Origin: a virus
Strand: one strand, 5' to 3'
IMG/VR virus record: IMGVR_UViG_3300024999_001289
Coordinates: 1-30,182 of that record
DNA length: 30,182 bases
Shown here: positions 2,393 through 22,944 of the stretch, one piece after another
How positions within the stretch are numbered: the first letter of the stretch is position 1
How the letters are laid out: each line of letters starts with the position of its first letter
Notes under the pieces: model-generated
The model's database searches: none
Seen by the model: the letters and a program-made list of their open reading frames with translations, nothing else
Told to the model about the DNA's origin: nothing
Program-made: the position numbers and the translations under genes

Positions 2393-2447
2393 ATTAAAAT
2401 CATGACAAAAGCCTGATTTGGTCACAATATAAAAGTGAGGTGATAAT

Positions 2448-2714: not shown

Positions 2715-2745
2715 TCTAAATATTTATGAATTTAGTGAGGTTTTT

Positions 2746-2937: not shown

Positions 2938-2969
2938 ATTTAAATATTAAAAAAGGAGAGAAATTAATT

Positions 2970-3353: not shown

Positions 3354-3371
3354 AGGAGTAAACAAATATAA

Positions 3372-3845: not shown

Positions 3846-3854
3846 AAATAATGA

Positions 3855-3883
3855 TTGACAAATAGTTAATAGAATGATAAAAT
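3855..3883 (+). promoter_or_regulatory. Sigma-A promoter with extended -10
   Basis: TTGACA (3855-3860), a 17-base spacer, and TGATAAAAT ending at 3883 (extended TG plus TAAAAT at 3878-3883). The stretch AATAGAATGATAAAATAAT is shared with the promoter at 11871-11899, so these two form a promoter family. It serves the small gene cluster starting at 3913. Confidence 0.7.
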
Positions 3884-3912
3884 AATAATAAAATAAAGGA
3901 GGGTAATAAACT

Positions 3913-4182
3913 ATGATAGACAAAAAGAATGGTTATATATCTAATAATTTTGAAGAATTAGAATGTTTAAAAGATGAAATAATTAAAGGCGTACTTCAAC
4001 ACGATAAGAAAATATACATAATTTTTAAAAGTGGATTTTCTTTTTGGTTTAATTCTAATGGTGCTTTTGCAATTGAATTGACCAATGTAACTCAAGATAT
4101 TTTAAATAATCATAAAGGCAAATTAATATCAACTAAAAAAGCAATTGAAAATGTATTAAGATTAGCAGGAGAAGAATTATGA
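3913..4182 (+). CDS. Small hypothetical protein, 89 aa
   Basis: No family recognised. The protein looks like a small alpha/beta domain: an N-terminal helix (FEELECLKDEIIKGV), a pair of strands (KIYIIFKSGFSFWFNSNGAF) and a C-terminal helix (TKKAIENVLRLAGEEL). The strand pair and helix resemble small phage regulators in general shape only. Very strong ribosome binding site AAAGGAGGG about 10 bases upstream, and it is the first gene behind the promoter at 3855. After its stop, the same frame continues as a decayed reading frame (see 4189-4346). Confidence 0.7.
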   Translation: MIDKKNGYISNNFEELECLKDEIIKGVLQHDKKIYIIFKSGFSFWFNSNGAFAIELTNVTQDILNNHKGKLISTKKAIENVLRLAGEEL

Positions 4183-4188
4183 AATTAA

Positions 4189-4346
4189 GATTTTATTTCT
4201 AATACTACATGGAAAGAGTATCAAAAATTTGTTGAGCATACCTATGGTTAAGAGAATAATTACATGAAATAGTAGAGTATATTAACATTGCTTGTAGTAT
4301 TTATGAGAGTTTATATAGAGAAGAAAAGGAGAATAAATCAATATGA
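4189..4346 (+). pseudogene. Possible decayed coding remnant
   Basis: This stretch has no intact gene, yet reads as protein-like in two successive frames. First comes DFISNTTWKEYQKFVEHTYG (4189-4248), ended by TAA. A second frame one base off then gives LHEIVEYINIACSIYESLYR and onward from 4260, which stops just inside the next gene. No ribosome binding site or good start precedes either piece. The simplest reading is a small gene broken by a stop codon and an indel, but chance open frames cannot be excluded. Confidence 0.3.
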
Positions 4347-4519
4347 AATTAATTGATAAGTTAATTCAACTTAATAATGGTAATCAATTAGAAGCAGAGT
4401 GTGACTGTCCATATAATTATTATAATGGTGAAATACCTACAGATTCATTTATACCTTATTGTGCTGAAGATGGTAGTGGATGTGAAATGTGTCATAATCA
4501 AGAGTTAAAAGGATTATAA
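4343..4519 (+). CDS. Small Cys-rich protein, 58 aa
   Basis: Begins ATG AAA TTA and contains five cysteines in two groups: CDCPYNYYNG (about residues 20-29) and CAEDGSGCEMCHNQ (about 40-53). The spacing could hold one or two zinc ions; no family recognised. The N-terminus (MKLIDKLIQLNNGN) is a short helix. AAAAGGAG lies about 11 bases upstream, and the stop is one base before the start of the next gene, indicating tight translational coupling. Confidence 0.65.
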   Translation: MKLIDKLIQLNNGNQLEAECDCPYNYYNGEIPTDSFIPYCAEDGSGCEMCHNQELKGL

Positions 4520-4520
4520 T

Positions 4521-4733
4521 ATGAAAAATATAATTATTAAATCTATAAGTAAAAAATTAATATGCTCTATATGTGACTATGATGAATGGTATAAAGAAGA
4601 TGTAGTTGTTTCATTGACAAAAGATTATAATTTTAGTTGTAGTAAACCTATAGTTATGTTAACTTGCATAAATTGTAAGAATATTTTATTTTTTGAGAAA
4701 GATAATATTTTAATGAATCATGATCAAAGATAA
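4521..4733 (+). CDS. Small Cys-rich protein, probable zinc ribbon, 70 aa
   Basis: Two CxxC-type pairs, CSICDYDEWY (about residues 15-18) and CINCKNILFF (about 49-52), separated by about 30 residues of strand-like sequence, make a plausible zinc ribbon. The second knuckle followed by hydrophobic strands is typical of small ribbon proteins found across Bacillota phages. No function can be assigned. It begins one base after the preceding stop, with AAAGGA inside the end of the previous gene as ribosome binding site. Confidence 0.65.
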   Translation: MKNIIIKSISKKLICSICDYDEWYKEDVVVSLTKDYNFSCSKPIVMLTCINCKNILFFEKDNILMNHDQR

Positions 4734-4766
4734 GTTTGATCTAAAATTAGGAGGAATAATAATTTT

Positions 4767-5147
4767 ATGAGTGATTATGTAGCAACAAAATGTATTAGGT
4801 TAGAAACTGAACATCAAGATTTAGAAAAAATTTTAAACTATTTAGGAAAAAATGAATTATATAAAAACATAAAGGAAGATGAAGGTTATTTAGATTTATA
4901 TGAAATTAATGAAATCTTAGAAGAAAAAGAAAATATCAGAATAATAAAATATAAAAGTAATTATTATATTGATATTATTTTGCAAAATGAATATGGTGAA
5001 ACAGAAATTGAATTATATTTATCAATAAAAGAAATAAACAATATTGTAGATGATTTTATTGATAAATATGGTTATATTAAAATAATAAATATAATTGTAT
5101 TAGCGTTTAATTGGTATAATGGTAGTGATGAACCATATAGTTATTAG
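4767..5147 (+). CDS. Hypothetical acidic protein, 126 aa
   Basis: Not recognised. It is strongly acidic and rich in Ile, Asn and Tyr, with an alternation of helices (EHQDLEKILNYLGKNELYKN) and strands (IRIIKYKSNYYIDIIL). The C-terminus repeats Ile/Val-rich strand sequence and ends in a Tyr-rich tail. No cysteine pairs or membrane helices are obvious. AGGAGG about 14-19 bases upstream supports this ATG; it is somewhat distant but no nearer start exists. It lies in a run of small genes of unknown role. Confidence 0.65.
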   Translation: MSDYVATKCIRLETEHQDLEKILNYLGKNELYKNIKEDEGYLDLYEINEILEEKENIRIIKYKSNYYIDIILQNEYGETEIELYLSIKEINNIVDDFIDKYGYIKIINIIVLAFNWYNGSDEPYSY

Positions 5148-5167
5148 AAAATAAAGGAGAATATATT

Positions 5168-5335
5168 ATGGCAGACATAATGTTTCAAATACATAATTAT
5201 TATGAAAAAAATGGTTTGTATTTTATAGAAACGGATTATGGTGAGTTATATACAGAAAACAAAAAAAATTATGATAAAACAGTTAAAAATGGGTTTATTA
5301 TTCTTAAATTAGATGAATACGATTATGATATATAA
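5168..5335 (+). CDS. Small hypothetical protein, 55 aa
   Basis: A short open frame with a good ribosome binding site (AAAGGAG about 9 bases before the ATG) and codon use like its neighbours. The sequence is Tyr/Asp/Lys-rich (IHNYYEKNGLYFIETDYGEL) and ends in FIILKLDEYDYDI, suggesting a small strand-rich protein. No motif identified. It sits 20 bases after one gene and 26 bases before the J-domain gene, so it is part of the same transcript. Confidence 0.6.
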   Translation: MADIMFQIHNYYEKNGLYFIETDYGELYTENKKNYDKTVKNGFIILKLDEYDYDI

Positions 5336-5361
5336 TTTTAAAAATTAAAGGAAATAATCTA

Positions 5362-5973
5362 ATGATATTACTATTAAAATTTTGGATAAGTCATTTGTAT
5401 ATGGATTATGATACTAGAGTTAAATTTGTTTATACTAATTATCTAAAACTTAATCTATATAGTTTATTTATATTTGTAAGTGTTATGATTATAGGATTAT
5501 TCGTTAATATTCATTATAGATTATCTTTAACTATTTCTATGTTTCATTTATTGTTTGTATTTATGATATCTATGGCTAACAATAATGATTATTCTAGAAT
5601 ACTTACAAAAGAAAGAAAAATAAAACTAGAAGAAGAAAGATTGAAATGTGAAGAGCAAGATAGAATAGTAAGAGAGAATGAAAGAATCAGAAAAGAAAAA
5701 ATTCATAAAGAATATGAAGATCAACAGAAAAGAATGTATGAAGAATTTATTAAATATTTTTTCAATAATTATTATATTTACAATACAAATGATAATTTAA
5801 ATGCATTGTTGACAATATTAGAATTGCCACTTGAAACTAGAGATTTTAATGTAATTAATAAACAACATAGAAAATTAGCAAAATTATATCATCCCGATAT
5901 TTATAAAGACAATGGAATAAAGTTAAAAGAAATTAATGTTGCATTTGATAGATTAAAGAAAATATTAAAGTGA
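5362..5973 (+). CDS. Membrane-anchored J-domain (DnaJ-like) protein, 203 aa
   Basis: Two hydrophobic segments near the N-terminus (about residues 31-50 and 54-72) form a membrane anchor or hairpin. They are followed by a long charged coiled coil (about 80-130) and a C-terminal J-like domain. The diagnostic HPD tripeptide is present at 177-179 in RKLAKLYHPDIYKDNG, flanked by the helix II basic patch and the helix III pattern EINVAFDRLKKIL. J-domains stimulate the ATPase of DnaK; this one lacks the Gly/Phe region and zinc domain of DnaJ, so it is a specialised tethered co-chaperone. It could recruit host DnaK to the membrane for assembly or for remodelling a host complex (inference). Ribosome binding site AAAGGAA about 8 bases upstream. 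Confidence 0.8.
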   Translation: MILLLKFWISHLYMDYDTRVKFVYTNYLKLNLYSLFIFVSVMIIGLFVNIHYRLSLTISMFHLLFVFMISMANNNDYSRILTKERKIKLEEERLKCEEQDRIVRENERIRKEKIHKEYEDQQKRMYEEFIKYFFNNYYIYNTNDNLNALLTILELPLETRDFNVINKQHRKLAKLYHPDIYKDNGIKLKEINVAFDRLKKILK

Positions 5974-5987
5974 GGTAAGATGAGTAT

Positions 5988-6251
5988 ATGGATAAAGAAT
6001 TTATAATTAAATGTATTGATGTTATAAACAAAATAGAATTACACTCAATAATAGCAATAACTAAAGATAATAAAGAACAAAAATATCAAGTTAATTGTAC
6101 ATGTGAGTATGATTATACTGAATGGGAATTAACATGTTTGGATGAAGAAAATGCTATATGGGATTGTAATGAAACATTAGATGATATTAAAGAAGATTTA
6201 TTATGTGGTGCGATTAGAGGTTCGTATCAAAAAATAAGATTAAAGGAGTAA
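5988..6251 (+). CDS. Small hypothetical protein, 87 aa
   Basis: Not recognised. An N-terminal helix (MDKEFIIKCIDVINKIELH) is followed by strands (SIIAITKDNKEQKYQVNC) with an aromatic, acidic middle (YDYTEWELTCLDEENAIWDC) and a C-terminal helix and strand. Five cysteines are present but not as close pairs. GTGAGGTAAGATG precedes the start. The next gene begins six bases after the stop and uses AAAGGAG located inside this gene's last codons. Confidence 0.65.
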   Translation: MDKEFIIKCIDVINKIELHSIIAITKDNKEQKYQVNCTCEYDYTEWELTCLDEENAIWDCNETLDDIKEDLLCGAIRGSYQKIRLKE

Positions 6252-6257
6252 ATAAAT

Positions 6258-6419
6258 ATGAAATATGTCAGCAAAACTTTTAACTATTTAATTTCACTAT
6301 ATTTTATTATCTTATTTATCTCCTTATTTTTTGGATATAAACCAACAAATGCAGAAATAGGGTGTGCTTCTTTATTTGCATCAATATTTTTCTTAGATTA
6401 TGCGAACAATAAAATTTAA
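6258..6419 (+). CDS. Small two-helix membrane protein, 53 aa
   Basis: A basic N-terminus (MKYVSKTFNYL) is followed by a strongly hydrophobic segment (ISLYFIILFISLFFG), a short loop (YKPTNAEIGC) and a second hydrophobic segment (ASLFASIFFLDYA). It is probably an inner-membrane hairpin. Small membrane proteins of phages include holin-like and superinfection-exclusion proteins, but nothing here allows that choice. Ribosome binding site AAAGGAG lies about 9 bases upstream, overlapping the previous gene's end. Codon use matches neighbours. Confidence 0.6.
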   Translation: MKYVSKTFNYLISLYFIILFISLFFGYKPTNAEIGCASLFASIFFLDYANNKI

Positions 6420-6438
6420 ATAAAAGGAGGATTAATAT

Positions 6439-6588
6439 TTGTATCTTTGTTGTATGAATACTGAATGTAAATATTATTGGGAAGATTGTTGTACTAAAGT
6501 ATTAGAAAATGAAATGATTTATTTAGATGTTAATGGTAAATGTAATAGTTTTGAGTTAGGAATAAGTGATTATTATAATAATAAATAA
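6439..6588 (+). CDS. Small Cys-rich protein, DUF1540-like, 49 aa (TTG start)
   Basis: Starts at TTG 6439 with AAAAGGAGG about 10 bases upstream. Six cysteines are arranged as CCMNTECKYYWEDCC in the N-terminal third and one near CNSFELG. The pattern C...C-K-Y...C...C-x-S/T-F resembles the short DUF1540 family of Bacillota, whose function is unknown but which probably binds metal. The second in-frame start (ATG at the sixth codon) is a less likely alternative since it would drop the first cysteines. Confidence 0.6.
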   Translation: MYLCCMNTECKYYWEDCCTKVLENEMIYLDVNGKCNSFELGISDYYNNK

Positions 6589-6614
6589 AATATTAAATAA
6601 AAGGAGAGATTATT

Positions 6615-7082
6615 ATGTTATTTTGGACAGTAGTATTTTTTACATTCTACTTAGTGATATTTGCAAAAGGAAATCCAATGTATAACAATATTATTAAAAC
6701 AGGAGAATTAACAATAAAACTTTATGAACAAGGTAAAACAGAAAAAGAAATAAACAAAGAGTTATTTGATAATAATTGGCCTTACTTATTTTATATTCCA
6801 TTGGTTTTAGGTACATTTATTTACTACATAAATGCTTTGACAGTAGATATTTATAAATATCCTACAATTGGAATTTTAGTATATTTAATTTTTACAATGG
6901 CATTTTCTAAATATAGTAATAATAAATCTAAAAATGATTTAACTACCGAAGGGGGTAGACAAAAGTATAGAGAACAACTATATAAAATTCGTAAAAGAAC
7001 ATTTAAAGGTATGATTAAACAATTAATATTTTTAAGTTATTATGGATATATGTTTTATCTTTTAGTGTTTGTGATAAGATAA
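6615..7082 (+). CDS. Membrane protein with about four transmembrane segments, 155 aa
   Basis: Hydrophobic segments are visible at about residues 2-17 (FWTVVFFTFYLVIFAK), 54-71 (WPYLFYIPLVLGTFIYYI), 81-97 (YPTIGILVYLIFTMAF) and 134-153 (IFLSYYGYMFYLLVFVIR). The first loop is charged (EQGKTEKEINKELFDN) and the loop before the last helix is basic (KIRKRTFKGMIK), so that loop is probably cytoplasmic. No family recognised. Ribosome binding site AAAAGGAGAG about 8 bases before the ATG. Its stop codon lies immediately before the structured RNA at 7088-7208. Confidence 0.7.
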   Translation: MLFWTVVFFTFYLVIFAKGNPMYNNIIKTGELTIKLYEQGKTEKEINKELFDNNWPYLFYIPLVLGTFIYYINALTVDIYKYPTIGILVYLIFTMAFSKYSNNKSKNDLTTEGGRQKYREQLYKIRKRTFKGMIKQLIFLSYYGYMFYLLVFVIR

Positions 7083-7087
7083 AAATT

Positions 7088-7208
7088 TATGATAAGAAGT
7101 GTATCGAAAAAAGGTTAACAGTAGGCATAATAAACCAGTAACCTTGAGAAACCCACAACCTAGAAATAGGTGGTCGAAGCTGTTAGATTATGCACACTTC
7201 TTATTATA
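7088..7208 (+). ncRNA. Candidate structured RNA with pseudoknot pairing
   Basis: The outer stem pairs 7092-7102 (ATAAGAAGTGT) with 7194-7204 (ACACTTCTTAT), 11 perfect bp, extendable to 15 with one G-U. Inside, AAGGTTA (7111-7117) pairs with TAACCTT (7139-7145). ACCTA-GAAA-TAGGT (7158-7171) is a GNRA-type tetraloop hairpin. GCATAAT in the loop of the first inner stem (7125-7131) pairs with ATTATGC (7187-7193) directly before the outer stem, giving a pseudoknot. AACAG (7117-7121) with CTGTT (7180-7184) is a further alternative helix. An open frame runs across it, but that reading lacks a ribosome binding site and the real gene starts at 7243. It may be a riboswitch, ribozyme or trans-acting RNA; I recognise no class. 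Confidence 0.65.
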
Positions 7209-7863: not shown

Positions 7864-8292
7864 ATGAAATTAAAAAGTAAAACGATATTAATTGACGAAA
7901 ATGAAAAAATAAAAATTAGACCATGTTATCATAATTATGCTAGAATGACAACGTTAGAATATCTTTATTGTGAAGTTTTTATATGGAAAACTGTTCAAAA
8001 TAATATTATATATTCTTTTAAAGAAGTGATAGAACCAATTAAAGAAATAGTTTGGTTTGTGCTTAATATTATATCATTGCCTATTTTGCCAATATTATTA
8101 TATATCAAAGCTAAAAAACAAATTAATAAAGCAAAAAATGAAGTTTGGAAAGATAAATGTTATGATTGCAAATATAGAAAAAATAGTCCAATGATAAAAG
8201 AAAGACTAAAAGATATGATAATTATTGGTGAATGTGCAAAGTGTAAATTAATTGATGGTATGCCTACTAAATTTATAGAGGGAGTAAATTAA
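7864..8292 (+). CDS. Hypothetical protein with hydrophobic segment and Cys-rich end, 142 aa
   Basis: Residues about 55-80 (IKEIVWFVLNIISLPILPIL) form one long hydrophobic segment, so the protein is probably membrane-attached. It is flanked by a soluble N-terminal part and a C-terminal region with two Cys pairs (CYDCKYRKNS and CAKCKLIDGMP), a likely zinc-binding tail. No family recognised. AGAAAGGAA about 8-10 bases upstream of ATG 7864. It lies 11 bases before the next gene. Confidence 0.65.
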   Translation: MKLKSKTILIDENEKIKIRPCYHNYARMTTLEYLYCEVFIWKTVQNNIIYSFKEVIEPIKEIVWFVLNIISLPILPILLYIKAKKQINKAKNEVWKDKCYDCKYRKNSPMIKERLKDMIIIGECAKCKLIDGMPTKFIEGVN

Positions 8293-8304
8293 AGGAGTAA
8301 GTTT

Positions 8305-8505
8305 ATGAAATATAATAAAACTGAAAGAAATAAACATGTAGATGAAATATTAAGGAAATATGGTATAATAGTAGAAAAAATATCTCAAAAAGAATTAAAT
8401 CAGAGAATTAAAGATAAAGTAGAAGGTTATTATATTACAAATGGTGTTAATATTACTGTGTCAAAATATAATCAGTTTGAACCATCGGATGATGAAGTAA
8501 TTTAA
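8305..8505 (+). CDS. Small hypothetical protein, 66 aa
   Basis: Lys/Glu-rich N-terminal helix (KTERNKHVDEILRKYGIIVE) followed by a short strand region (GYYITNGVNITVSKYNQFE). The beginning resembles a small winged or ribbon-helix fold in composition, but no motif is definite. Ribosome binding site AAAGGAG about 8 bases upstream of the ATG. Not recognised. Sixty-five bases without a gene follow. Confidence 0.6.
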   Translation: MKYNKTERNKHVDEILRKYGIIVEKISQKELNQRIKDKVEGYYITNGVNITVSKYNQFEPSDDEVI

Positions 8506-8570
8506 GATAGTAAAATATAAAAATAAGGGTAATACTATGAATATAAAATATTAAAAAGGAGAAAATTATT

Positions 8571-8918
8571 ATGAACAAATATAAATTAATAAAACCAACA
8601 AATAAAGGCAAAATATTTACTGTCACAATTGAAGCAGATTCAAATGATGGAGATTATATCACAGCAACTAGTGATTATACTGAATTAGAATTTGAAGAAA
8701 TAGTAGATGAATTAATTAGATTAAAAAAATATTATAGTGATTCACATCAATTTGAAGATTTTTATAATACTGAATATAATATTGATATTCCGTATAGTGA
8801 ATATGGTAGATGTCATACATTATCTTCTATTGAAATTTATTGTATTGATGAGAATGGGCAATATTTTGAAGTTGAATTGAATCTGGATGATATTGTTTTT
8901 TTAATAGTGAATTATTAA
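8571..8918 (+). CDS. Hypothetical acidic protein, 115 aa
   Basis: Strand-rich and acidic (KIFTVTIEADSNDGDYITAT, then a helix with ELEFEEIVDELIRLKKYY and a C-terminal strand pair). No cysteine pairs, membrane segments or known motifs. AAAAAGGAG about 9 bases before ATG 8571. It is the last gene before the strong promoter at 8957-8985 and so closes the left-hand cluster of small unknown genes. Confidence 0.65.
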   Translation: MNKYKLIKPTNKGKIFTVTIEADSNDGDYITATSDYTELEFEEIVDELIRLKKYYSDSHQFEDFYNTEYNIDIPYSEYGRCHTLSSIEIYCIDENGQYFEVELNLDDIVFLIVNY

Positions 8919-8956
8919 ATCATGACAAAAAATTAGATTTGTAATGATTTTAGGTA

Positions 8957-8985
8957 TTGACAGAATACTAATATAATTGTATAAT
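8957..8985 (+). promoter_or_regulatory. Consensus sigma-A promoter of rtcB
   Basis: A perfect TTGACA (8957-8962), 17-base spacer and TATAAT (8980-8985). Upstream ATGATTTTAGG repeats the sequence before the promoter at 43-71, and CATGACAAAA (about 8921-8930) repeats one seen at 2401-2410. It reads into rtcB at 9015 behind AAGGAGG. Confidence 0.8.
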
Positions 8986-9014
8986 ACATATAGAATCAGA
9001 AAGGAGGTTGAATT

Positions 9015-10256
9015 ATGTTAGAATTAAAAGGTAAATACAATACAGCTAAAGTTTTTACTGATAATATTGAGCAAACTGCTATATCTCAGATAATTGAATT
9101 ATGCAACCAACCATTTGTTGAAGATGGTAAAATTAGAATTATGCCTGATACTCATTATGGTGCAGGATGCGTAATAGGATTTACTGCTAACTTAGGAGAT
9201 AAAGTAATACCTAATCTTGTAGGTGTCGATATCGGATGTGGAATGTCAACATTTGAATTAGGAAAAGTAAATATTGATTTACAAAAATTAGATGATATTA
9301 TTCGTGAATTTGTTCCATCTGGTAGAAACATACACAGTAGTAGAATGTCTGACTTTGATGAAATGAGAAAATTGCACTGTTATAGATCGCTTAAAGATAC
9401 GAAAAGAATTGAACGAAGTATAGGTACTCTTGGTGGAGGAAACCATTTTATAGAAGTTAATAAAGATAGTAATGATAATTTATATCTTGTTATTCACTCA
9501 GGAAGTAGAAATTTAGGAAAACAAGTAGCAGAATATTATCAAAACATTGCTATTGATTTATGTAGTGGTAAAAGTGATTATTATAATCAAAAAGATAAAT
9601 TAATTGCTGATTATAAAAAACAAGGAAAAAGAAATGAAATTCATAATGCATTAAAAGAATTAGAGAAAAAGTATAACAACTTACATCCATCTTATCCAAA
9701 AGATTTATGTTTTCTTTCTGGTGAATGGAGAGAGAAATATTTACATGATATGAAAATATGTCAAGAGTATGCTACTTTAAATAGATATATCATAGCAGAT
9801 ATTGTATTATTAAAACTTGTAAAAATAGAGGAAATAACTAAAAAAGAATATCATAATATTAAAATATTTGAAACAATTCATAATTATATTAATTTTAAAG
9901 ATAATATTATTCGTAAAGGTGCTATCTCTGCTTATAAAAATGAAAAAGTTTTAATCCCTATTAATATGCGTGACGGATCAATTTTAGCTATAGGTAAAGG
10001 TAATCCAGATTGGAATTATTCTGCCCCTCACGGTGCTGGTAGATTAATGAGTAGAAGTAAAGCAAAAGAAAATATTATTATGGAAGAATATCAAAAATCT
10101 ATGGAAGGTATCTTTACTACTTCTGTTGGTATTCATACACTTGATGAAGCACCTATGGCATATAAATCTATGGATGAAATTATTAATAATATTGGAGATA
10201 CTGTTGAGATATTAGATATTATTAAACCTATTTATAATTATAAAGCAGGAGAATAA
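9015..10256 (+). CDS. rtcB: RtcB-family RNA-splicing/repair ligase, 413 aa
   Basis: Joins RNA 2',3'-cyclic phosphate or 3'-phosphate ends to 5'-OH ends using GTP and Mn2+. All key blocks are visible: VDIGCG (71-76, metal Cys 75), GTLGGGNHFIEV (137-148, metal His 144), HSGSRNLG (161-168, metal His 161), ETIHNY (His 279) and SAPHGAGRLMSR with the guanylylated His at 339. The length matches the E. coli enzyme. In a phage the likely job is mending tRNAs or other RNAs cut by host anticodon nucleases or toxins; this is inference. It has its own consensus promoter (8957-8985) and a strong AAAGGAGG. No archease gene is seen. The next gene begins 35 bases after the stop. Confidence 0.93.
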   Translation: MLELKGKYNTAKVFTDNIEQTAISQIIELCNQPFVEDGKIRIMPDTHYGAGCVIGFTANLGDKVIPNLVGVDIGCGMSTFELGKVNIDLQKLDDIIREFVPSGRNIHSSRMSDFDEMRKLHCYRSLKDTKRIERSIGTLGGGNHFIEVNKDSNDNLYLVIHSGSRNLGKQVAEYYQNIAIDLCSGKSDYYNQKDKLIADYKKQGKRNEIHNALKELEKKYNNLHPSYPKDLCFLSGEWREKYLHDMKICQEYATLNRYIIADIVLLKLVKIEEITKKEYHNIKIFETIHNYINFKDNIIRKGAISAYKNEKVLIPINMRDGSILAIGKGNPDWNYSAPHGAGRLMSRSKAKENIIMEEYQKSMEGIFTTSVGIHTLDEAPMAYKSMDEIINNIGDTVEILDIIKPIYNYKAGE

Positions 10257-10291
10257 ATTGAAAATATAAAATAACAAAGGAGGTTAATCTT

Positions 10292-11341
10292 ATAAAAACG
10301 AATATATTTATTCCTAAAACAATTAAAGTAGGTTTTCAAAATCGTAATGATACATATACAAAGAAATTAGCATACATTATCTATTATGATGAAAAAGGGA
10401 AATTAAGGAAAGAAGTTAGCTGGAACGGTTGGAGAGACAATAAAATCGAACCACAAGAATTTGCTAATGAACCAATTTCAGGATTTGTATTAAACAAAAA
10501 GACAGGTGATTATTCAACTCATTGGAATCATCGACATGCATATTGTAGAGTATATGACAGCAGAGACTTCGAATTTGAGATCACAATAGAAAATCTTTTA
10601 TATATTCTTGAAAATACTTCGTCAATTAAAGGGAAAGGGTTGGAAGGTGAATTTGTTTATGGATGGGACGGAAAGGATTTATTATTATTACCTGTAGATT
10701 CACCAGATTATAAACAATTAGTTGAACTTAATAATTTAAGATATGAAAAGAAAAAATTTGATAGTAAGAATATGATTGTAGGTGCAACGTATAAAACTAA
10801 TCAAAATAATGAATTAATATATTTAGGAAGATTTTATGAAAGAAATGGTGACAATAAAGAATCAAAATCATACTTCTTTTATGACAGAAATTCAAAATAT
10901 AATTATTATAAAGTTACTACTATTAAATCTTTGACAGGAAATATAATTGATATAGTAGATGAAAATTGTATTGAAGATTATTCTAATTTAATGGATGAAT
11001 TATTAAAAAGTAGTTATTATTCTACTAGAGAACAGAAATATGATGAATATATGAATTATACATTAATTGAATTTAAAGAAAGTTTAAATAAACATGCATA
11101 TTCATATCATAGATACTATGTTCAAGTTGAAGATAAATATGTAAAATATCATATAGAAAGATATAGAGGTTATAGTTATTATAATAGTGATTATAAATAT
11201 AATGTTTATGCATTAAGCAAGGGACACAAGGATGAAGTAATTATTAGAGATGCATCAATAGAACAAGTATTCAATAAAATAAAACCTAAATATTTAGTTA
11301 CATATGATAAAAATAAAAATATAATTAAGGAGTGGAAGTAG
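10292..11341 (+). CDS. Phage protein of unknown function, 349 aa, apparent ATA start
   Basis: The reading frame is open from the TGA at 10259 to 11341, yet no ATG, GTG or TTG occurs in frame before 10640. The first 116 codons are clearly coding (KVGFQNRNDTYTKKLAYIIY, SWNGWRDNKIEP, GFVLNKKTGDYSTHWNHRHA). AAAGGAGG at 10276-10283 stands 8 bases before an ATA codon at 10292, which I take as the start. The protein matches, from memory, a conserved phage family of unknown role (SWNGWRD, AYCRVYD, ENLLYILEN, KGKGLEGEFVYGWDGKDLLL). The C-terminal half is Tyr-rich. It is co-transcribed with rtcB and followed after 4 bases by the next gene. An annotation starting at 10640 would lose a third of the protein. 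Confidence 0.8.
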   Translation: MKTNIFIPKTIKVGFQNRNDTYTKKLAYIIYYDEKGKLRKEVSWNGWRDNKIEPQEFANEPISGFVLNKKTGDYSTHWNHRHAYCRVYDSRDFEFEITIENLLYILENTSSIKGKGLEGEFVYGWDGKDLLLLPVDSPDYKQLVELNNLRYEKKKFDSKNMIVGATYKTNQNNELIYLGRFYERNGDNKESKSYFFYDRNSKYNYYKVTTIKSLTGNIIDIVDENCIEDYSNLMDELLKSSYYSTREQKYDEYMNYTLIEFKESLNKHAYSYHRYYVQVEDKYVKYHIERYRGYSYYNSDYKYNVYALSKGHKDEVIIRDASIEQVFNKIKPKYLVTYDKNKNIIKEWK

Positions 11342-11345
11342 TAAT

Positions 11346-11762
11346 ATGACAAACAAACAAAATGTAAACGATGAAAAGATTATGGCATTGAAATCACAGA
11401 TTCAAGAAAAGAAGAAATGCTTAAAAACTAAAAAGAGATTTTCACCTATCACAAACTGCAATTTAGAATTGGATGGAGTAAGGTATAATATCCAAGTACC
11501 TAATAAAGAGATATTGTTTAATTTATTGATTAAATTAAATTCAAATTTATTATCTTATAGGGATTTGGAGTTAGAAGATGAATACATTATCTCTGGTTAT
11601 AGTATTGATCAATGGATTACTGATGTTAAATTAAAATTAGAGATTTTGAAATATGAGGAAGAAGATAGGAAATTGAAGTTGTTGGAAAATAAACTTCATG
11701 TTTTGCTCTCAAGTGAAAAACAGGTAGCTTTAGCTATTGATGAGATAGAATCTTTGATTTAA
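11346..11762 (+). CDS. Hypothetical coiled-coil protein, 138 aa
   Basis: Charged helices at both ends (NVNDEKIMALKSQIQEKKKC and LKLEILKYEEEDRKLKLLEN) bracket a short strand section (NLELDGVRYNIQVPNKEI). The pattern suggests a helical hairpin with a small strand cap; a role as a partner of the upstream protein is possible. Not recognised. It starts four bases after the previous stop, with AAGGAGTGG as ribosome binding site. The long inverted repeat at 11777-11829 follows and ends this transcript. Confidence 0.65.
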   Translation: MTNKQNVNDEKIMALKSQIQEKKKCLKTKKRFSPITNCNLELDGVRYNIQVPNKEILFNLLIKLNSNLLSYRDLELEDEYIISGYSIDQWITDVKLKLEILKYEEEDRKLKLLENKLHVLLSSEKQVALAIDEIESLI

Positions 11763-11776
11763 TAAGAATAAATAGA

Positions 11777-11829
11777 AATTTTGGTTTTCACAAAGTGTTG
11801 ATTTTACTGTGTTTGTGAAAACCAAAATT
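11777..11829. terminator. Long perfect inverted repeat, probable bidirectional terminator
   Basis: AATTTTGGTTTTCACAAA (11777-11794) pairs perfectly with TTTGTGAAAACCAAAATT (11812-11829), 18 bp with a 17-base loop. It lies between the rtcB transcript and the promoter at 11871, so it most likely ends the rtcB unit and insulates the next operon. The stem is A/T-rich at its foot, giving U-runs for both strands. Confidence 0.65.
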
Positions 11830-11870
11830 AACACAAAATTTATGTTTCATTTCAATATGAGAAATAATAG

Positions 11871-11899
11871 TTGACAAGTTTGGAATAGAATGATAAAAT
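11871..11899 (+). promoter_or_regulatory. Sigma-A promoter of the NAD operon
   Basis: TTGACA (11871-11876), 17-base spacer, extended -10 TGATAAAAT with TAAAAT at 11894-11899. It shares AATAGAATGATAAAATAAT with the promoter at 3855-3883, and the bases AATAATAG before TTGACA recur at the ligase promoter (20910). It reads into 11930 behind AAGGAGG. Confidence 0.75.
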
Positions 11900-11929
11900 A
11901 ATTGTAATAGAAAACAAGGAGGACAAAAC

Positions 11930-12718
11930 ATGGTAAGTATAAATGGTTATTCAATTGGTAATGAATGCTACCCAAATAATGAACGAATATTTAAAACTAA
12001 AGAATTCGATACAGATGATTTCACAATTGAAATTAAATATGAAACAGATATTGATATTTCAATTCTTATTATGTGTAAAAAATATTTAGATGATAAATTC
12101 AATAATCCAAAAGTAACTTTAATAATGAAATACGTTCCCTATTCTCGTATGGATAGAAATATTAAAGGTTATATGTTTAGTTTAAAATATTTCTGTCAAT
12201 TGATTAATGATTTAAAATTTCATAGAGTTATAGTATTAGATATACATTCAAATGTTGCAACTGCATTGTTAGATAGATGTGAAGAAATTGATGTTAATCA
12301 ATACATATATAAAATATTTAATGAAGTTTATGTAGATTATGTATTTTATCCAGATGCAGGAAGTATGACTAGATATTCTAAAACATTTAAAACAAGTCAA
12401 CCATATTTTTATGGAAATAAGAAAAGAGATTTATCTAATGGCAAAATTACTTCATATGAAATTGTAGATTGTCCTGATATACAAAATAAAAATATATTAA
12501 TCATTGATGATTTATGTGCTTTTGGTGGAACATTTAAATTAGCAGCAGAAAAATTAAAAGAGAAAGGTGCAAATAATATATTTTTATATATTTCTCATTG
12601 TGAAAATTCTATATATAAAGGTGATTTAATTAAATCTGGTTTAATTTCAAAAATATACACAACTGATAGTATTTTAAGTGATTGGTCAAGTAAATTGATT
12701 TATAATATAGAATATTAA
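11930..12718 (+). CDS. PRPP-synthetase-like enzyme, candidate ADP-ribose pyrophosphate synthetase (Adps), 262 aa
   Basis: The fold of ribose-phosphate pyrophosphokinase (Prs) is evident: VPYSRMDR (69-76, the ATP-side loop), VLDIHS (102-107, metal His), PDAG (141-144) and the phosphate loop IIDDLCAFGGTF (191-202). It is about 50 residues shorter than cellular Prs, as in other phage members. The usual DDMIDTGGT loop, which holds the 5'-phosphate of ribose, here reads DDLCAFGGT, so the substrate side differs. With a NAMPT-like gene in the same operon, the best reading is the first enzyme of the phage NARP1 pathway, which pyrophosphorylates ADP-ribose. Plain PRPP synthesis (a NARP2-like or salvage role) is the alternative. 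First gene behind the promoter at 11871; strong ribosome binding site. Confidence 0.85.
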   Translation: MVSINGYSIGNECYPNNERIFKTKEFDTDDFTIEIKYETDIDISILIMCKKYLDDKFNNPKVTLIMKYVPYSRMDRNIKGYMFSLKYFCQLINDLKFHRVIVLDIHSNVATALLDRCEEIDVNQYIYKIFNEVYVDYVFYPDAGSMTRYSKTFKTSQPYFYGNKKRDLSNGKITSYEIVDCPDIQNKNILIIDDLCAFGGTFKLAAEKLKEKGANNIFLYISHCENSIYKGDLIKSGLISKIYTTDSILSDWSSKLIYNIEY

Positions 12719-12736
12719 AATAAAAGGAGATTAAAT

Positions 12737-13162
12737 ATGAAAAAGAAAAAAGCATTTCTTGGAGGTACATGTGCGGATAGTAAATGGAGAAATGAATTAA
12801 TACCAAAATTAAAAATTAATTATTTTAATCCTGTGGTAAAAAATTGGACACCAGAATGTCAAGAAGAAGAAATTAGACAAAGAGAAACTTCTGATTTTGT
12901 ATTATACACTTTAACTAGACCATATAGTACGTATTCTATTGCAGAAGCAGTAGATGATAGTAATAAAAGACCTGAAAAAACAATTGTTTGTATTTTTAAT
13001 GAATTAATAGATTATAAATGGTATACAAAATTGGCTATGAGTAAACAAGAATTAAAACATTTAGATGCAGTAGGTAGATTAGTAGAAAGAAATGGTGGAA
13101 AATATTTTAAATCGTTAGATGAAGTTGCAGATTATTTGAATAGTAAAGTTAAAGAAGGTTAA
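12737..13162 (+). CDS. Nucleoside 2-deoxyribosyltransferase-like protein, 141 aa
   Basis: The N-terminus KAFLGGTCADSKWRNEL (5-21), then YFNPVVKNW (29-37), RQRETSDFVLYTLT (47-60) and STYSIAEAVDDS (64-75) match the Nuc_deoxyrib_tr-like family. The conserved Glu is at 70. The family breaks N-glycosidic bonds of (deoxy)nucleosides or nucleotides and transfers the sugar; many small members are uncharacterised. Within this operon it could act on a nicotinamide- or ADP-ribose-derived compound, or be a nucleotide sensor; both are inference. Ribosome binding site AAAAGGAG lies about 9 bases upstream. Three bases separate its stop from the next start. Confidence 0.8.
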   Translation: MKKKKAFLGGTCADSKWRNELIPKLKINYFNPVVKNWTPECQEEEIRQRETSDFVLYTLTRPYSTYSIAEAVDDSNKRPEKTIVCIFNELIDYKWYTKLAMSKQELKHLDAVGRLVERNGGKYFKSLDEVADYLNSKVKEG

Positions 13163-13165
13163 ATT

Positions 13166-13588
13166 ATGGATTATTATTTAGATGATAATAATGCAGTTAA
13201 TAGGTTGGTAGAAGAATGGAGAAAATACGGCAAAATAATTATCGGATATGACTTTGATGATACTGTGTTTGACTTCCACCAGAAAGGCAGAACATATAAA
13301 AATGTAATGAATCTTTTAAGGGAATGTAAAAAATTAGGTGCATATTTTATTGTTTTTACTTGTTGTGGAGAAGATGAATATGACAAAATTAAAAACTATC
13401 TAAATGAAAATAAGTTACCATATGATAAGATTAATGAAAATATTGACTTTGTAAAATTTACAGGTAGAAAAGTTTATTACAATATTATGCTTGATGATAG
13501 AGCAGGGTTGTCATCTGCATATAAAGTATTATTAAAAACTATTAAAATAATTAAAAAAGAAAAGGAGAATGATACATATGAAAATTAA
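13166..13588 (+). CDS. HAD-superfamily phosphatase-like protein, 140 aa
   Basis: Motif I of HAD hydrolases is clear: IIIGYDFDDTVFDF (24-37), with the nucleophile Asp and the second Asp two residues on. FIVFTCCGED (about 57-66) is motif II with Thr, and NIMLDDRAG (about 110-118) is motif IV with paired Asp. A Lys of motif III is likely within KFTGRKVYY. The cap is minimal, as in small phage-encoded nucleotidase-like HADs. A nucleotide or sugar phosphate is the likely substrate. Located three bases after the deoxyribosyltransferase-like gene; its last 11 bases overlap the start of the NAMPT-like gene, so translation is coupled. Confidence 0.8.
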   Translation: MDYYLDDNNAVNRLVEEWRKYGKIIIGYDFDDTVFDFHQKGRTYKNVMNLLRECKKLGAYFIVFTCCGEDEYDKIKNYLNENKLPYDKINENIDFVKFTGRKVYYNIMLDDRAGLSSAYKVLLKTIKIIKKEKENDTYEN

Positions 13589-15050
13589 TCCAATGTTATT
13601 GACAGACTTTTATAAAATTTCTCACCGTATTATGGCAGAAAAAGGTATTCAAAAAACATATTCTACATTTACACCGAGATCATCAAGAATTAAAGGTATT
13701 AATGATGTAGTATTTTTTGGACTACAAGGTTTTATTAAAGAATATTTAATTGAATATTTTAATGACAATTTCTTTAATAAAAACAAACAAGAAGTTATTG
13801 CTGAATATAAAAGAATTATTAAATTTACTTTAGGTGATAACTGTGCAGATACAGAACATATTGAAAAATTACATGATTTAGGATATTTACCAATTAAAAT
13901 ATGTGCTTTAAAAGAGGGAACAGTAGCACCTATTAAAATACCTTTATTTACAATAGAAAATACACATAATGAATTTCACTGGTTAACAAATTACATAGAA
14001 ACATTAACGAGTGCTTGTATGTGGAAACCTATAACTACAACAACTATAGTTAAAAAATACAGAGAAATATGTGAAAAGTGGGCAGAAAAAACTTCTAATA
14101 TAAAAGACCATCTTCAATGGCAATGTCATAATTTTAGTTATAGAGGTATGAGTGGGAATGAAGATGCTATAACTACTGGAGCAGGACAATTATTATATTT
14201 TACAGGGACAGATACTATTCCAAGTATTTGTTATTTAGAAAAATATTATAATGCAAATGTGGAAAATGAATTGGTTGGAGCAAGTGTATTGGCTACAGAG
14301 CATAGTATCCAATGTCAATATCAAGATGATTTAAAATATTATAAAAGAATGATTAATGAAGTAGCACCTGAAGGAATTATTTCAATTGTATCTGACGGTT
14401 ATGATTATTGGAATGTTATTGGAAATATCATACCACAATTAAAAAATGATATTATAAATAGAAATGGTAAGTTAGTTGTCAGACCAGATACGGGAAATCC
14501 AGTAGATATTATTTGTGGTGATAAAAATTCTACTGATGAAGTGATTAGAAAAGGTTCTATTGAATCATTATGGGATACATTTGGTGGTACAATTAATTCA
14601 AAAGGTTATAAAGTATTAGATTCACATATTTCTTTGATATATGGAGATGCGATCACTCTTGAAAGAGCAGAAGAAATATTTAAACGATTAGAATTAAAAG
14701 GATTCTCTAGTGAAAATGTTGTGTTTGGTATTGGTTCTTATTCATTAGGATATTACACTAGAGATTCATTTGGTATAGCTATTAAAGCAACACAAGTAAT
14801 GATAGATGGTAAAGAAATAAATATTTTTAAAGATCCAAAAACAGATAGTGATAAAATTAAAAAATCACAAAAAGGCAGAATTGTTGTTTATAAAGATGAT
14901 TTTCATGAAATTAGATATAAAGATGAATTAACACAAAAAGATTGTAAAAAGTTTAATAAAATTAATTTATTAGAAGATGTATTTATTGATGGAAAACTAG
15001 TTAGAGATGAAAGTTTAGCAGAAATTAGAAAAAGAGTGTTGAATAATTAA
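13578..15050 (+). CDS. Nicotinamide phosphoribosyltransferase-like enzyme, candidate Namat of NARP1, 490 aa
   Basis: NAMPT family throughout. TDFYKISHR (9-17), GLQGFIKEYLI (48-58), SYRGMSGNEDA (177-187), FTGTDTI (208-214, substrate Asp 212), ATEHSI (239-244, catalytic His 242) and VVRPDTGNP (300-308, Arg 302 and Asp 304) correspond to the human residues Asp219, His247, Arg311 and Asp313. Length is normal. I start at 13578 because AAAGGAG at 13561-13567 is 10 bases away, while the upstream in-frame ATG at 13569 is only 1 base away. It condenses nicotinamide with an activated ribose. Paired with the Prs-like gene and with no NMN adenylyltransferase nearby, direct NAD+ formation from ADP-ribose pyrophosphate is the favoured reading. 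Last gene of the operon. Confidence 0.9.
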   Translation: MKINPMLLTDFYKISHRIMAEKGIQKTYSTFTPRSSRIKGINDVVFFGLQGFIKEYLIEYFNDNFFNKNKQEVIAEYKRIIKFTLGDNCADTEHIEKLHDLGYLPIKICALKEGTVAPIKIPLFTIENTHNEFHWLTNYIETLTSACMWKPITTTTIVKKYREICEKWAEKTSNIKDHLQWQCHNFSYRGMSGNEDAITTGAGQLLYFTGTDTIPSICYLEKYYNANVENELVGASVLATEHSIQCQYQDDLKYYKRMINEVAPEGIISIVSDGYDYWNVIGNIIPQLKNDIINRNGKLVVRPDTGNPVDIICGDKNSTDEVIRKGSIESLWDTFGGTINSKGYKVLDSHISLIYGDAITLERAEEIFKRLELKGFSSENVVFGIGSYSLGYYTRDSFGIAIKATQVMIDGKEINIFKDPKTDSDKIKKSQKGRIVVYKDDFHEIRYKDELTQKDCKKFNKINLLEDVFIDGKLVRDESLAEIRKRVLNN

Positions 15051-17012: not shown

Positions 17013-17744
17013 ATAGAAAATTATTGTTATAAATGCAATATATCATCAAATAAAACAAAATTATATTCTACATTTGGGAAATACATATGTAAGGAATGTT
17101 TAGATAAAAGAAAAACTGGTCGTAAGGGTCATAGTGGTATGATATATGATAAGAATATTAAAGAAGAAGATTACTATGATAATGATATAAAAGAAGAAAA
17201 ATTATATTTAAAACCAATTAAAAAAAGCAACAAATTATTTGTTAAATGGTTTATAGAACATTATCCAGAAAGTAAAGGTATAGTAGGAAGACAAATTAAT
17301 TTTTTAATATATTCATATGGGAAACCTATAGGTATTATAGGTTTTGCTTCGCCTCCATTAAATTATAAAAAGTTTAATCAATTTTTTGAATTAGATAGTA
17401 AAAATAAATCTAGTGAAAATGCCAAATTATTTTTAAACAATAATGTTTTTAGAATAGTATATACTGAGAAAAATTTAGGAACACAAATATTAAAATTAGC
17501 TAGAAAACAATTATTTAAAATATATAAGGAAAAATATAATCAAGAATTATTAGGATTGATTACATTTGTTGAACCACCAAGAACAGGTTCGTTATATAAA
17601 GCAGATAATTGGTCATACATAGGAGAAACACAAGGTATTGAAGTTAAACGTAGAGGAAACGAATGGATTGAAAAACAATACATAATCGGTGATAAAAAGT
17701 ACATATATGGTTATAAATATAAAATTAATAAAACAAAAATATAA
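17013..17744 (+). CDS. Zn-ribbon plus DUF4338/Mom-like protein, 243 aa, apparent ATA start
   Basis: The first ATG in frame is at 17139, but the 42 codons before it encode a clear zinc ribbon (YCYKCNISSN, then YICKECLDKRKTGRKG), much like the one at 25698. The frame has AGGAG (16999-17003) 9 bases before an ATA at 17013; ATT at 17010 is an alternative. The main domain has GRQINFLIYSYGKPIGIIGF, FRIVYTEKNLGTQILKLARK, LLGLITFVEPPRTGSLYKAD and NWSYIGETQGI, which recall DUF4338 and the related Mom acyltransferase-like GNAT fold. Mom proteins modify adenine in phage DNA; DUF4338 also occurs in the Druantia defence system. Next to a DNA methyltransferase, a role in DNA modification is plausible but unproven. 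Confidence 0.7.
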   Translation: MENYCYKCNISSNKTKLYSTFGKYICKECLDKRKTGRKGHSGMIYDKNIKEEDYYDNDIKEEKLYLKPIKKSNKLFVKWFIEHYPESKGIVGRQINFLIYSYGKPIGIIGFASPPLNYKKFNQFFELDSKNKSSENAKLFLNNNVFRIVYTEKNLGTQILKLARKQLFKIYKEKYNQELLGLITFVEPPRTGSLYKADNWSYIGETQGIEVKRRGNEWIEKQYIIGDKKYIYGYKYKINKTKI

Positions 17745-20964: not shown

Positions 20965-22944
20965 ATGTTGAATAAAATTCAAAAGATACGAAGAATACAT
21001 GATTTAGTTTTATTGTTAAACAATGCTTGTCACGCATACTATAATTTAAATTCACCTATAATGGAGAATCGTGAGTATAATATTTTATTTGATGAATTAA
21101 AATTATTAGAATCTGAATTAAATGTAACATTATCAAATTCACCAACACAAAGAGCAGGTTATAAAGTAGTATCTAATTTGCCAAAAGTCAAACATGACAT
21201 ACCTTTACTTTCACTTGACAAAGTAAAAGAAATTTCTAAATTAATTAAATGGTTGGGTGATAAGCAAGGTGTATTAATGTTAAAAATTGATGGTGGAACA
21301 GGTAAAGTAACTTATCAAAAAACATTTAAACAATTAGTAACTAGAGGGGATTCAGAAACCAATATTGGTGAAGATATTTCTCATAATGTTAATAGTATAA
21401 AAAATATTCCATTAGCAATTGATGATGAGGAAGAAATTCAAGTTGTCGGTGAGAATTTTATGAGATATTCTTCATTTAATGAATTGAATTCTAAAATTAA
21501 AAATCCAGATGAAAGATATGCTAATCCTAGGAATTTAGCAAACGGTTCTGTAGGGTTATTAGATTCTAAGGTATGTAAAGAAAGAAATATTGAATTTTGT
21601 GCTTTTAATATTATCAAAGGAAATAAGTTTGAAACAAAACTTGGACAGTTAGAATGGTTAAAATCACAAGGTTTTGATGTTGTTAAATATTGGATAGTAG
21701 ATAAAAATAATCTTGAAGAAATTATAAACAAGATAATTGAAGATATTCCTAGTTTTGATTATCCGATAGATGGTTTAGTGTTAACTTTTAATGATATTAG
21801 TTATGCAGAATCATTAGGAAAGACCAATCATCATTATAATGGAAGTATTTCGTTCAAGTTTGAGGATAGTTGGCATAAATCAAAATATCTATATACTGAA
21901 TGGAATACAAGTAGGTTTGGGAAAATTGTAGGAACAGGAATCTTTCAACCAGTAAATATTGAAGGTACAGAAGTAACTAGAGCGACAACACATAATTTAG
22001 ATAGGTTTTGGCAATTAAAATTAGGTAAATCTGATGTGGTTGAAATCTCGAAAAGAAATAAAATTATTCCTGCTATTGAAAATAATATTACCAGAAGTGG
22101 TACAGAAGAAATTCCTACAGAATGTCCTACATGTAAAGGTAAAGTAGAAATTAGAAAAGTAGTAAATACTCATGATTTATTCTGTCTTAATCCTGATTGT
22201 GATGCAAAACTATTAAAGAAATTAAAACACTTTGTTAGTAAGCAATGTTTTAATATTAGTGATATTGGCGAAGCATCTTTAGAAGTATTTATTGATAAAG
22301 GTTTTATTAATTGTTATATGGATATTTTTAAATTAGAAAAATTTAAGAAAGAAATTATATCAATTTCTGGATTTGGGATTCGATCTTTTAACAAGATGAT
22401 AACTGCAATAGAAAATTCTAAAAATATTAAAATGTGTTCACTTATAGCATCTTTGGGAATTAAAAATGTTGGATTTGGTAGTGCTAAAAGATTAGAAAAA
22501 CATTTTAATAGTGATATTAATGATTTTTTAAATGCAGTTGGTTCTTATCGTAATTTTATTGGAATTGAAGATTTTGGTGAGACTACAGCAATGAGTATTT
22601 ATTCATATTTTCAAGATAAAGATAATATGGAACAGTTTAAGGAATTGTTAAGTGTTATTAATGTTGTTAAGGAAGAAGAAAAAAAGGATAATGTGAATAC
22701 AAATAATTTCTTTAGTGGTAAAAAAGTGTATTGTACAGGAACATTTGCTAATTATAAAAAAGACGAACTTAAAAAGTTATTAGAAAGTTTAGGAGCAGAA
22801 TTTACTTTAGGGTATGCTAAGTCATTAGATTATCTTGTGGTTGGTGGTATTAAAGGTAGCACAAAAACCGATAAGGCTATTAAAGATGGAATACAAGTTA
22901 TAGGAGAAGATGAGTTTATTAGGATAGTTAATCAAGGGTATTAA
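20965..22944 (+). CDS. ligA: NAD+-dependent DNA ligase, 659 aa
   Basis: Seals DNA nicks using NAD+. The adenylated lysine lies in LKIDGGTGKV (Lys 107), an N-terminal NMN-binding Ia-like domain is present (residues 1-60, CHAYYNLNSPIMENREYN), and nucleotidyltransferase motifs continue with YANPRNLANGSVG (185-197) and YPIDGLVL (266-273). An OB-fold and a four-Cys zinc finger (Cys 387, 390, 407, 412) are followed by helix-hairpin-helix repeats and a complete BRCT domain (about 580-659, FFSGKKVYCTGTF). The size is that of a full cellular LigA. ATG 20965 is only 4 bases after AAGGAGG, so TTG 20968 is a possible start. It uses NAD+, which ties it to the NAD operon at 11930-15050. Confidence 0.95.
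   Translation: MLNKIQKIRRIHDLVLLLNNACHAYYNLNSPIMENREYNILFDELKLLESELNVTLSNSPTQRAGYKVVSNLPKVKHDIPLLSLDKVKEISKLIKWLGDKQGVLMLKIDGGTGKVTYQKTFKQLVTRGDSETNIGEDISHNVNSIKNIPLAIDDEEEIQVVGENFMRYSSFNELNSKIKNPDERYANPRNLANGSVGLLDSKVCKERNIEFCAFNIIKGNKFETKLGQLEWLKSQGFDVVKYWIVDKNNLEEIINKIIEDIPSFDYPIDGLVLTFNDISYAESLGKTNHHYNGSISFKFEDSWHKSKYLYTEWNTSRFGKIVGTGIFQPVNIEGTEVTRATTHNLDRFWQLKLGKSDVVEISKRNKIIPAIENNITRSGTEEIPTECPTCKGKVEIRKVVNTHDLFCLNPDCDAKLLKKLKHFVSKQCFNISDIGEASLEVFIDKGFINCYMDIFKLEKFKKEIISISGFGIRSFNKMITAIENSKNIKMCSLIASLGIKNVGFGSAKRLEKHFNSDINDFLNAVGSYRNFIGIEDFGETTAMSIYSYFQDKDNMEQFKELLSVINVVKEEEKKDNVNTNNFFSGKKVYCTGTFANYKKDELKKLLESLGAEFTLGYAKSLDYLVVGGIKGSTKTDKAIKDGIQVIGEDEFIRIVNQGY

Follow-up and report, generated by a model that had tools for sequence, protein, structure and literature searches.

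A four-gene phage operon with a probable NARP1 core and a HAD-superfamily gene family that accompanies NARP1

Organization of the operon

The IMG/VR virus record IMGVR_UViG_3300024999_001289 is a 30 kb fragment of a phage (30,182 bases, with no other contig in the record) and was analysed over its whole length, referred to here as the window. Four open reading frames (ORFs) on its plus strand form a compact cluster (Table 1). The first and last encode relatives of ribose-phosphate pyrophosphokinase (Prs) and nicotinamide phosphoribosyltransferase (NAMPT) that correspond to Adps and Namat, the enzymes of the NAD+ reconstitution pathway NARP1, which has been described as a two-enzyme system (PMC12774641). 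Between them lie genes for a nucleoside 2-deoxyribosyltransferase-like protein (NDT) and for a predicted phosphatase of the HAD superfamily. Judged by its sequence, the cluster is very probably a phage NARP1 operon in its core, and its HAD gene belongs to a family that recurs beside NARP1 in phages and bacteria.

The genes are separated by 18 nt (Adps/NDT) and 3 nt (NDT/HAD), while the HAD and Namat genes overlap by 20 nt. Purine-rich sequences resembling ribosome-binding sites precede the starts, and a GGAGG site lies between the promoter-like site and the Adps ATG. The shared strand, the single promoter-like site and the tight spacing place adps and namat in one operon. The preliminary description of this DNA had proposed a promoter-driven operon of a Prs-like and a NAMPT-like gene; the promoter-like site and the coordinates agree with it, but the two-gene content does not, as the NDT and HAD genes between them had been overlooked. 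The locus is a four-gene operon. Both inverted repeats that flank it fold far better than shuffled sequences. A terminator scan returned no canonical terminator, and the repeat at the 3' side is not a canonical terminator. The low G+C content (25%) and the presence of relatives in Bacillus and Alicyclobacillus phages indicate that the host is probably a member of the Bacillota.

Table 1. Positions of the operon, its flanking elements, the DNA ligase gene and the putative nicotinate-type operons
Sequence	Feature	Position	Strand	Basis or remark
Window	Perfect inverted repeat, 18-nt arms, 17-nt loop	11777..11829	.	Upstream of operon; fold z-score -3.8
Window	Promoter-like site TTGACA-17-TAAAAT, extended -10 TG	11871..11899	+	11/12 consensus matches, best in region
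Window	Adps, Prs-like ADP-ribose pyrophosphokinase (predicted), 262 aa	11930..12718	+	40% to SPβL1 Adps; phrog_619 E 3e-65
Window	NDT, PF15891 nucleoside 2-deoxyribosyltransferase-like, 141 aa	12737..13162	+	Above Pfam cutoff; invariant Glu70; predicted fold
Window	HAD-superfamily phosphatase (predicted), 140 aa, NARP1-associated family	13166..13588	+	Motifs, predicted fold, neighbourhood
Window	Namat, nicotinamide ADP-ribose transferase (predicted), 493 aa	13569..15050	+	Homology; clamp R40 + GSYSLGYYTRD
Window	Perfect inverted repeat, 14-nt arms, 14-nt loop	15068..15109	.	Just 3' of operon; fold z-score -5.5
Window	NAD+-dependent DNA ligase LigA	20965..22944	+	TIGR00575 above cutoff; outside operon
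L005	Nicotinate-type operon	8001-13251		Adps, Namat-like, NadE and nicotinamidase-like genes
L014	Nicotinate-type operon	2218-5834		Adps, Namat-like, NadE and nicotinamidase-like genes
L021	Nicotinate-type operon	3160-7171		Adps, Namat-like, NadE and nicotinamidase-like genes

The core enzymes

The protein encoded by the first gene matches phrog_619, annotated as ribose-phosphate pyrophosphokinase, and the Pribosyltran model above its cutoff; its match to TIGR01251 falls below cutoff. Among 50,697 phage records, its closest relative by identity is the Adps of Bacillus phage SPβL1 (40% identity, 97% coverage). The loop that corresponds to the 5-phosphate loop of Prs (DTGGT) reads DDLCAFGGT in the window, as the preliminary description had stated, and is also altered in SPβL1 Adps (DDLSSFGGT). 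The earlier argument that such a change would suit ADP-ribose as the substrate is thus upheld. A survey of 161 Adps relatives, in 121 of which the loop could be parsed, found DTGGT in none of the listed loop forms, with two reading DTAGT. The remaining loop positions vary widely, and the altered loop alone is a weak marker. The results of a regular expression written for the Prs KxR loop could not be interpreted because the pattern was overly strict, and PADLOC matches of Adps to ShosT and PsyrT cover only a short stretch of the phosphoribosyltransferase fold.

The Namat-like protein matches phrog_448 ("nicotinamide phosphoribosyl transferase", E 3e-192) and scores above cutoff with NF006629. 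SPβL1 Namat, whose gene lies directly behind the Adps gene in that genome, is its second-best phage match (55% identity). Among solved structures it is closest to 9w5x and 9w5w (E about 2e-176), which, from their length, residue numbering and clamp motif, are regarded as those of SPβL1 Namat in PMC12774641. Alignment bears out the earlier statement that the NAMPT catalytic residues are all kept: F189, R192, D215, H245, R306 and D308 are identical in the window protein. Of the positions at which SPβL1 Namat touches NAD+, as given in PMC12774641, the window protein differs at one, with Tyr in place of F392. The two enzymes do not share a nearest relative: the window Adps is 63% identical to that of locus L100 but 38% identical to that of phage L011, whereas the window Namat is 82% identical to that of L011. 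The module is therefore mosaic. An insertion of about 80-90 aa occurs at one Namat loop (near window residues 318-327) in L011 (6946-7212), L003, L004, L016, L017 and L020; it is missing from the window Namat despite the 82/71% identity to L011.

The feature that separates Namat from the phosphoribosyltransferase Nampt is the adenine selectivity clamp, defined in PMC12774641. The clamp motif of the window protein is GSYSLGYYTRD, with Tyr at positions 3 and 7, and the stacking residue of the clamp loop (Arg, Lys or Tyr) is R40, aligned with R40 of SPβL1. Four phage NadV proteins used as controls (PVA23, GAP32, 44RR2.8t and Caulobacter phage C1) have GG-type motifs with no aromatic pair, and thus no clamp. 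No Adps was seen beside any of the four, and an annotated cytidyltransferase or NMN adenylyltransferase (NMNAT) gene lies near the NadV genes of GAP32 and C1. The clamp takes the Namat form in ICP1, Wigglewiggle and PAK_P1, which have a Prs homologue nearby, with PAK_P1 carrying Cys at position 7. In a phylogenetic tree, the window protein falls in the Namat clade with 100/100 support, apart from NadV. The identities to the SPβL1 enzymes, the clamp, the controls that lack it and the position in the tree together uphold the NARP1-like interpretation of the gene pair that was first put forward from the DNA.

In SPβL1, Adps was shown to convert ADP-ribose (ADPR) and ATP to ADPR pyrophosphate (ADPR-PP), from which Namat makes NAD+ with nicotinamide, and the two enzymes suffice for NARP1 (PMC12774641). 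The same steps can be assigned to the window because of its homology and active-site identity to these enzymes. Host NADase defences would split NAD+ into nicotinamide and ADPR. The predicted Adps would then transfer the pyrophosphate of ATP to the terminal ribose of ADPR, and the predicted Namat would join the resulting ADPR-PP to nicotinamide, yielding NAD+ and pyrophosphate. The phage LigA is a likely user of NAD+ made by the operon and would provide a direct use for it.

The HAD and NDT genes

The HAD protein contains all motifs of the superfamily (motif I DxDx[T/V], the Thr or Ser of motif II, the Lys, and DD of motif IV). D29, D31, K102, D110 and D111 are invariant among 55 relatives, T33 is nearly so, and T65 is conserved. 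An AlphaFold2 model with a mean predicted local distance difference test score (pLDDT) of 94.5 has the HAD fold; its best structural match is 2obb (E 1.3e-3), which the HAD profile also finds from sequence (E 2.6e-7). A PHROG annotation as phosphoheptose isomerase was rejected on the basis of motifs and fold. Structure and profile comparison found no close relative of known substrate. The substrate could not be named from the structure (2obb is a hypothetical protein), and AfhF, a phage D-arabinose 1,5-diphosphate phosphatase, matched too weakly to serve as a guide.

An initial search with the HAD protein found four viral loci, with adps and namat adjoining in all four. Viral contigs searched with a profile yielded 63 loci, reduced to 45 clusters at 90% identity; adps or namat lies within 5 kb in 32 and directly adjacent in 27 of these clusters, which are not fully independent of one another and derive from a search seeded with the HAD subfamily of the window. 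The same profile, run on one genome per bacterial or archaeal species, found 55 loci, including Paenibacillus, Cohnella, Clostridium and many Bacteroidota, with adps or namat present in 51 and directly adjacent in 46. A rough estimate of the background, taken from the phage collection, is 0.6% per 10 kb. The gene order takes the forms adps-HAD-namat, HAD-adps-namat, namat-HAD-adps and adps-namat-HAD, and because it varies, the link does not reflect one inherited arrangement. The HAD gene does not lie beside adps/namat by chance. No report of this association was found in the literature searched; the founding NARP paper, outside that search, may mention neighbours.

The NDT protein matches PF15891 (Nuc_deoxyri_tr2) with 35 bits against a gathering score of 30. 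Its predicted fold (pLDDT 94.3) is of the deoxyribosyltransferase/DNPH1/YtoQ/TIR type, with structural matches no better than E 6.5e-3. Glu70, which probably occupies the nucleophile position, does not vary among 67 relatives. NDT genes are embedded in NARP1 operons of six lineages.

Macro-domain genes are another recurrent neighbour. Of 96 clusters, 13 have such a gene inside or next to NARP1, frequently separating adps from namat or following namat directly (L005 11273-11899, L214 6481-6951, L186, L187, L190, L192, L193, L194, L205, L208, L225, L248 and L095). The nearest relative of the L005 protein, the one tested, is DarG, a DNA ADP-ribosyl glycohydrolase. The initially attractive idea that HAD and macro-domain genes exclude one another was dropped: it did not reach significance once the set was de-replicated (p 0.10 to 0.42), and both genes occur in L095.

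The position of the HAD and NDT genes, the recurrent ADPR-linked neighbours and the chemistry possible for these folds point to an accessory role, in which the two proteins would regenerate free ADPR from other ADPR compounds. The HAD protein would most likely dephosphorylate an ADPR derivative, such as ADPR-1''-phosphate (decayed ADPR-PP) or 2'-phospho-ADPR (from NADP+). That it is a phosphatase of an ADPR compound of any kind is a tentative proposal, with a probability somewhat below even. NDT would most likely act on an immune product linked to ADPR, cleaving a ribosyl bond in it, by analogy with RyDEP, an unrelated protein encoded within a mycobacteriophage NARP1 operon, which makes ADPR (PMC13232231). 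Such a role for NDT in particular is doubtful.

Alternative explanations

Several observations weigh against the reading of the locus as NARP1 with dedicated helpers. On the accessory side, the link between HAD and NARP1 is one-sided: HAD lies near only 7 of 71 viral Namat clusters, and is carried by three of eight Paenibacillaceae NARP1 loci and one of eight Flavobacteriales loci with Namat in reach. The neighbourhood survey included loci picked for their HAD gene, so that its HAD count is biased upward. Sixty-five of 69 NDT clusters are located away from NARP1. SPβL1 NARP1 works without HAD or NDT, so that neither is needed for the core. On the side of the core, the window clamp departs from the consensus at three variable positions (L, G and Y instead of an aromatic residue, Q/N and N/V), and Namat also uses phosphoribosyl pyrophosphate (PRPP) in vitro (PMC12774641). 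Additionally, about 3 kb downstream of the nearest Namat (82/71% in two pieces), phage L011 carries an NMNAT-like gene (10855-11427; NF003786 E 1e-12, below the curated cutoff).

HAD is a frequent NARP1 helper that is dispensable for the core, and a helper of this kind fits the published sufficiency of Adps and Namat. NDT was rejected as a NARP1-specific gene, since only four of 69 clusters lie near NARP1, although this exceeds the rough background (p about 8e-4); some NARP1 operons may have recruited what is otherwise a general enzyme.

It is quite possible, with a probability clearly short of even, that the core is NARP1 while HAD and NDT serve nucleotide salvage, unconnected with NARP1 except by co-expression, NDT acting on deoxynucleotides and HAD as a nucleotidase. 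Nucleotide chemistry would suit both families: DNPH1 and deoxyribosyltransferases have folds similar to that of NDT, L017 has an NT5C-like nucleotidase close to NARP1, and most NDT relatives are found away from NARP1. However, chance co-transcription does not account well for HAD staying beside adps/namat in phages, Bacillota and Bacteroidota alike and in more than one gene order.

HAD enzymes often act on nucleotides, and the HAD protein might instead be an independent anti-defence phosphatase that removes a nucleotide signal (e.g., dITP or its precursors in the Kongming defence) and so stops the NADase, leaving Adps and Namat to repair the damage. The dITP signal of Kongming, which derives from a phage kinase, triggers NAD+ loss, and NARP1 counters Kongming (PMC12774641). 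This role is unlikely: it has no direct support, and HAD accompanies NARP1 on bacterial chromosomes too, where an anti-defence function is less obvious.

Ordinary salvage through nicotinamide mononucleotide (NMN), in which PRPP from the Prs-like enzyme is used by the NAMPT-like enzyme to form NMN and a host or phage NMNAT converts this to NAD+ (a NARP2-like or Nampt route), can draw on the PRPP activity, the NMNAT-like gene of L011 and the Prs and NAPRT function names of the models NF006629 and TIGR01251, but it is improbable in view of the clamp residues R40, Y392-equivalent and Y396 in the window Namat, their absence from phage NadVs without Adps, the ribose-5-phosphate loop with the kind of alteration found in SPβL1 Adps, and the TIGR01251 score under its cutoff. 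An NMN route may nevertheless operate in parallel with NARP1 in the window phage. The preliminary description had taken the lack of a visible NMNAT or Nudix gene to favour the two-step route. Within this 30 kb fragment, no NMNAT or Nudix Pfam match was found among the ORFs scanned, and tblastn with the L011 NMNAT gave no match; given the size of the fragment and the NMNAT-like gene of L011, this is weak evidence for the two-step route.

A putative nicotinate-type clade of Namat

The residue that reads the nicotinamide amide (D215 in SPβL1, D219 in human NAMPT) is D in 141, E in 6 and A or S in 5 of 152 viral Namats, a set that was not de-replicated and includes one A/S locus in two copies. All five A/S proteins are encoded beside both nicotinamidase-like and NadE genes (L005, L014, L021 and L065; Table 1). 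L050, labelled "nam" in the tree, is a copy of L021. At the bacterial loci, Ala occupies position 215 in L282, L306 and L311, all three of which have NadE, whereas the remaining 46 rows, among them the SPβL1 reference, have D; a nicotinamidase-like gene is present in L282 and L311, and the L306 contig is short. Human nicotinate phosphoribosyltransferase has Ser at the equivalent position (PMC4442680). The A/S Namats form a single clade with 100/99 support, by which several independent origins were rejected. The NadE assignments are firm (TIGR00552 above cutoff), while nicotinamidase is assigned less securely (an isochorismatase domain scores above cutoff in L005; NF008623 falls below cutoff).

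From these residues and gene neighbours, the clade looks like a nicotinic-acid version of NARP1. Nicotinamide would be converted to nicotinic acid and ADPR to ADPR-PP; the two products would be joined to form nicotinic acid adenine dinucleotide (NaAD), from which NAD+ would be made. No description of such a route was found in the literature searched, which did not extend to the founding NARP paper.

Other genes in the window and near NARP1

An RtcB RNA ligase gene lies upstream of the operon in the window (9015-10256), and RtcB relatives adjoin NARP1 in five other loci (e.g., L020 8782-9972). An SPFH/Band 7 protein is encoded at 420-1253 of the window and, in the related phage L011 (1215-2051), directly upstream of the NDT gene. 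The window also encodes a protein with a domain match to the RecBCD inhibitor gp5.9 of phage T7 (7456-7755; PF25708, E 1.1e-17) and another that matches Druantia DruA (17139-17744; PF14236) and, more weakly, Mom DNA-modification families. Elsewhere, nine loci (L177 8570-9790 and eight others) have a member of a family with a WGR-like N-terminus less than 2.5 kb away from NARP1, and L019 (3200-5128) has a 642-aa radical-SAM-like ORF that is apparently split by an intein-like insert (starting CLPEETKI and ending VHNC).

Significance and comparison with known systems

The constancy of the tie between HAD and NARP1 (32/45 and 51/55) suggests that HAD is an overlooked third component of NARP1. Because the tie is so consistent, the HAD substrate probably arises on the route from ADPR to NAD+, as an intermediate or by-product, which leaves a short, testable list of substrates. 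Knowledge of the substrate would show how phages and bacteria handle ADPR-PP side products or phosphorylated ADPR. It would also show whether enzymes that reconvert immune signals to NAD+ are brought together in NARP1 operons. As a broader picture, with a probability somewhat below even, NARP1 would consist of two genes plus a recurrent HAD that recycles ADPR phosphates and exchangeable helpers (NDT-like, DarG-like macro domain, RyDEP), with a nicotinate clade using NadE and nicotinamidase.

Compared with NARP1 of SPβL1 (WIT26982.1 and WIT26983.1; PMC12774641), the window has the same core enzymes (40% and 55% identity) in the same order and on the same strand, and their active-site and clamp positions agree. 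The SPβL1 genes lie side by side, whereas those of the window are separated by NDT and HAD. The NARP1 operon of mycobacteriophage DyoEdafos also has an extra gene inserted (PMC13232231), but its RyDEP is a glycosidase with a RyR domain, while NDT and HAD belong to other families and are known here from sequence. The chromosomal NARP1 of Paenibacillus foliorum (PMC12774641) likewise consists of Adps and Namat homologues in a member of the Bacillota. It was described as two genes, whereas several of the Paenibacillus and Cohnella loci analysed here have HAD directly upstream of adps. The Nampt proteins of NARP2-type or NadV phages, such as GAP32 and Caulobacter phage C1, share the NAMPT fold and catalytic residues with Namat but differ in having no adjacent Adps seen, a GG-type motif instead of the clamp, and an NMNAT or cytidyltransferase gene nearby. 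Thus, the core of the locus is known from these systems, and its new part is the pair of NDT and HAD genes, above all the HAD family that tracks NARP1 across phyla.

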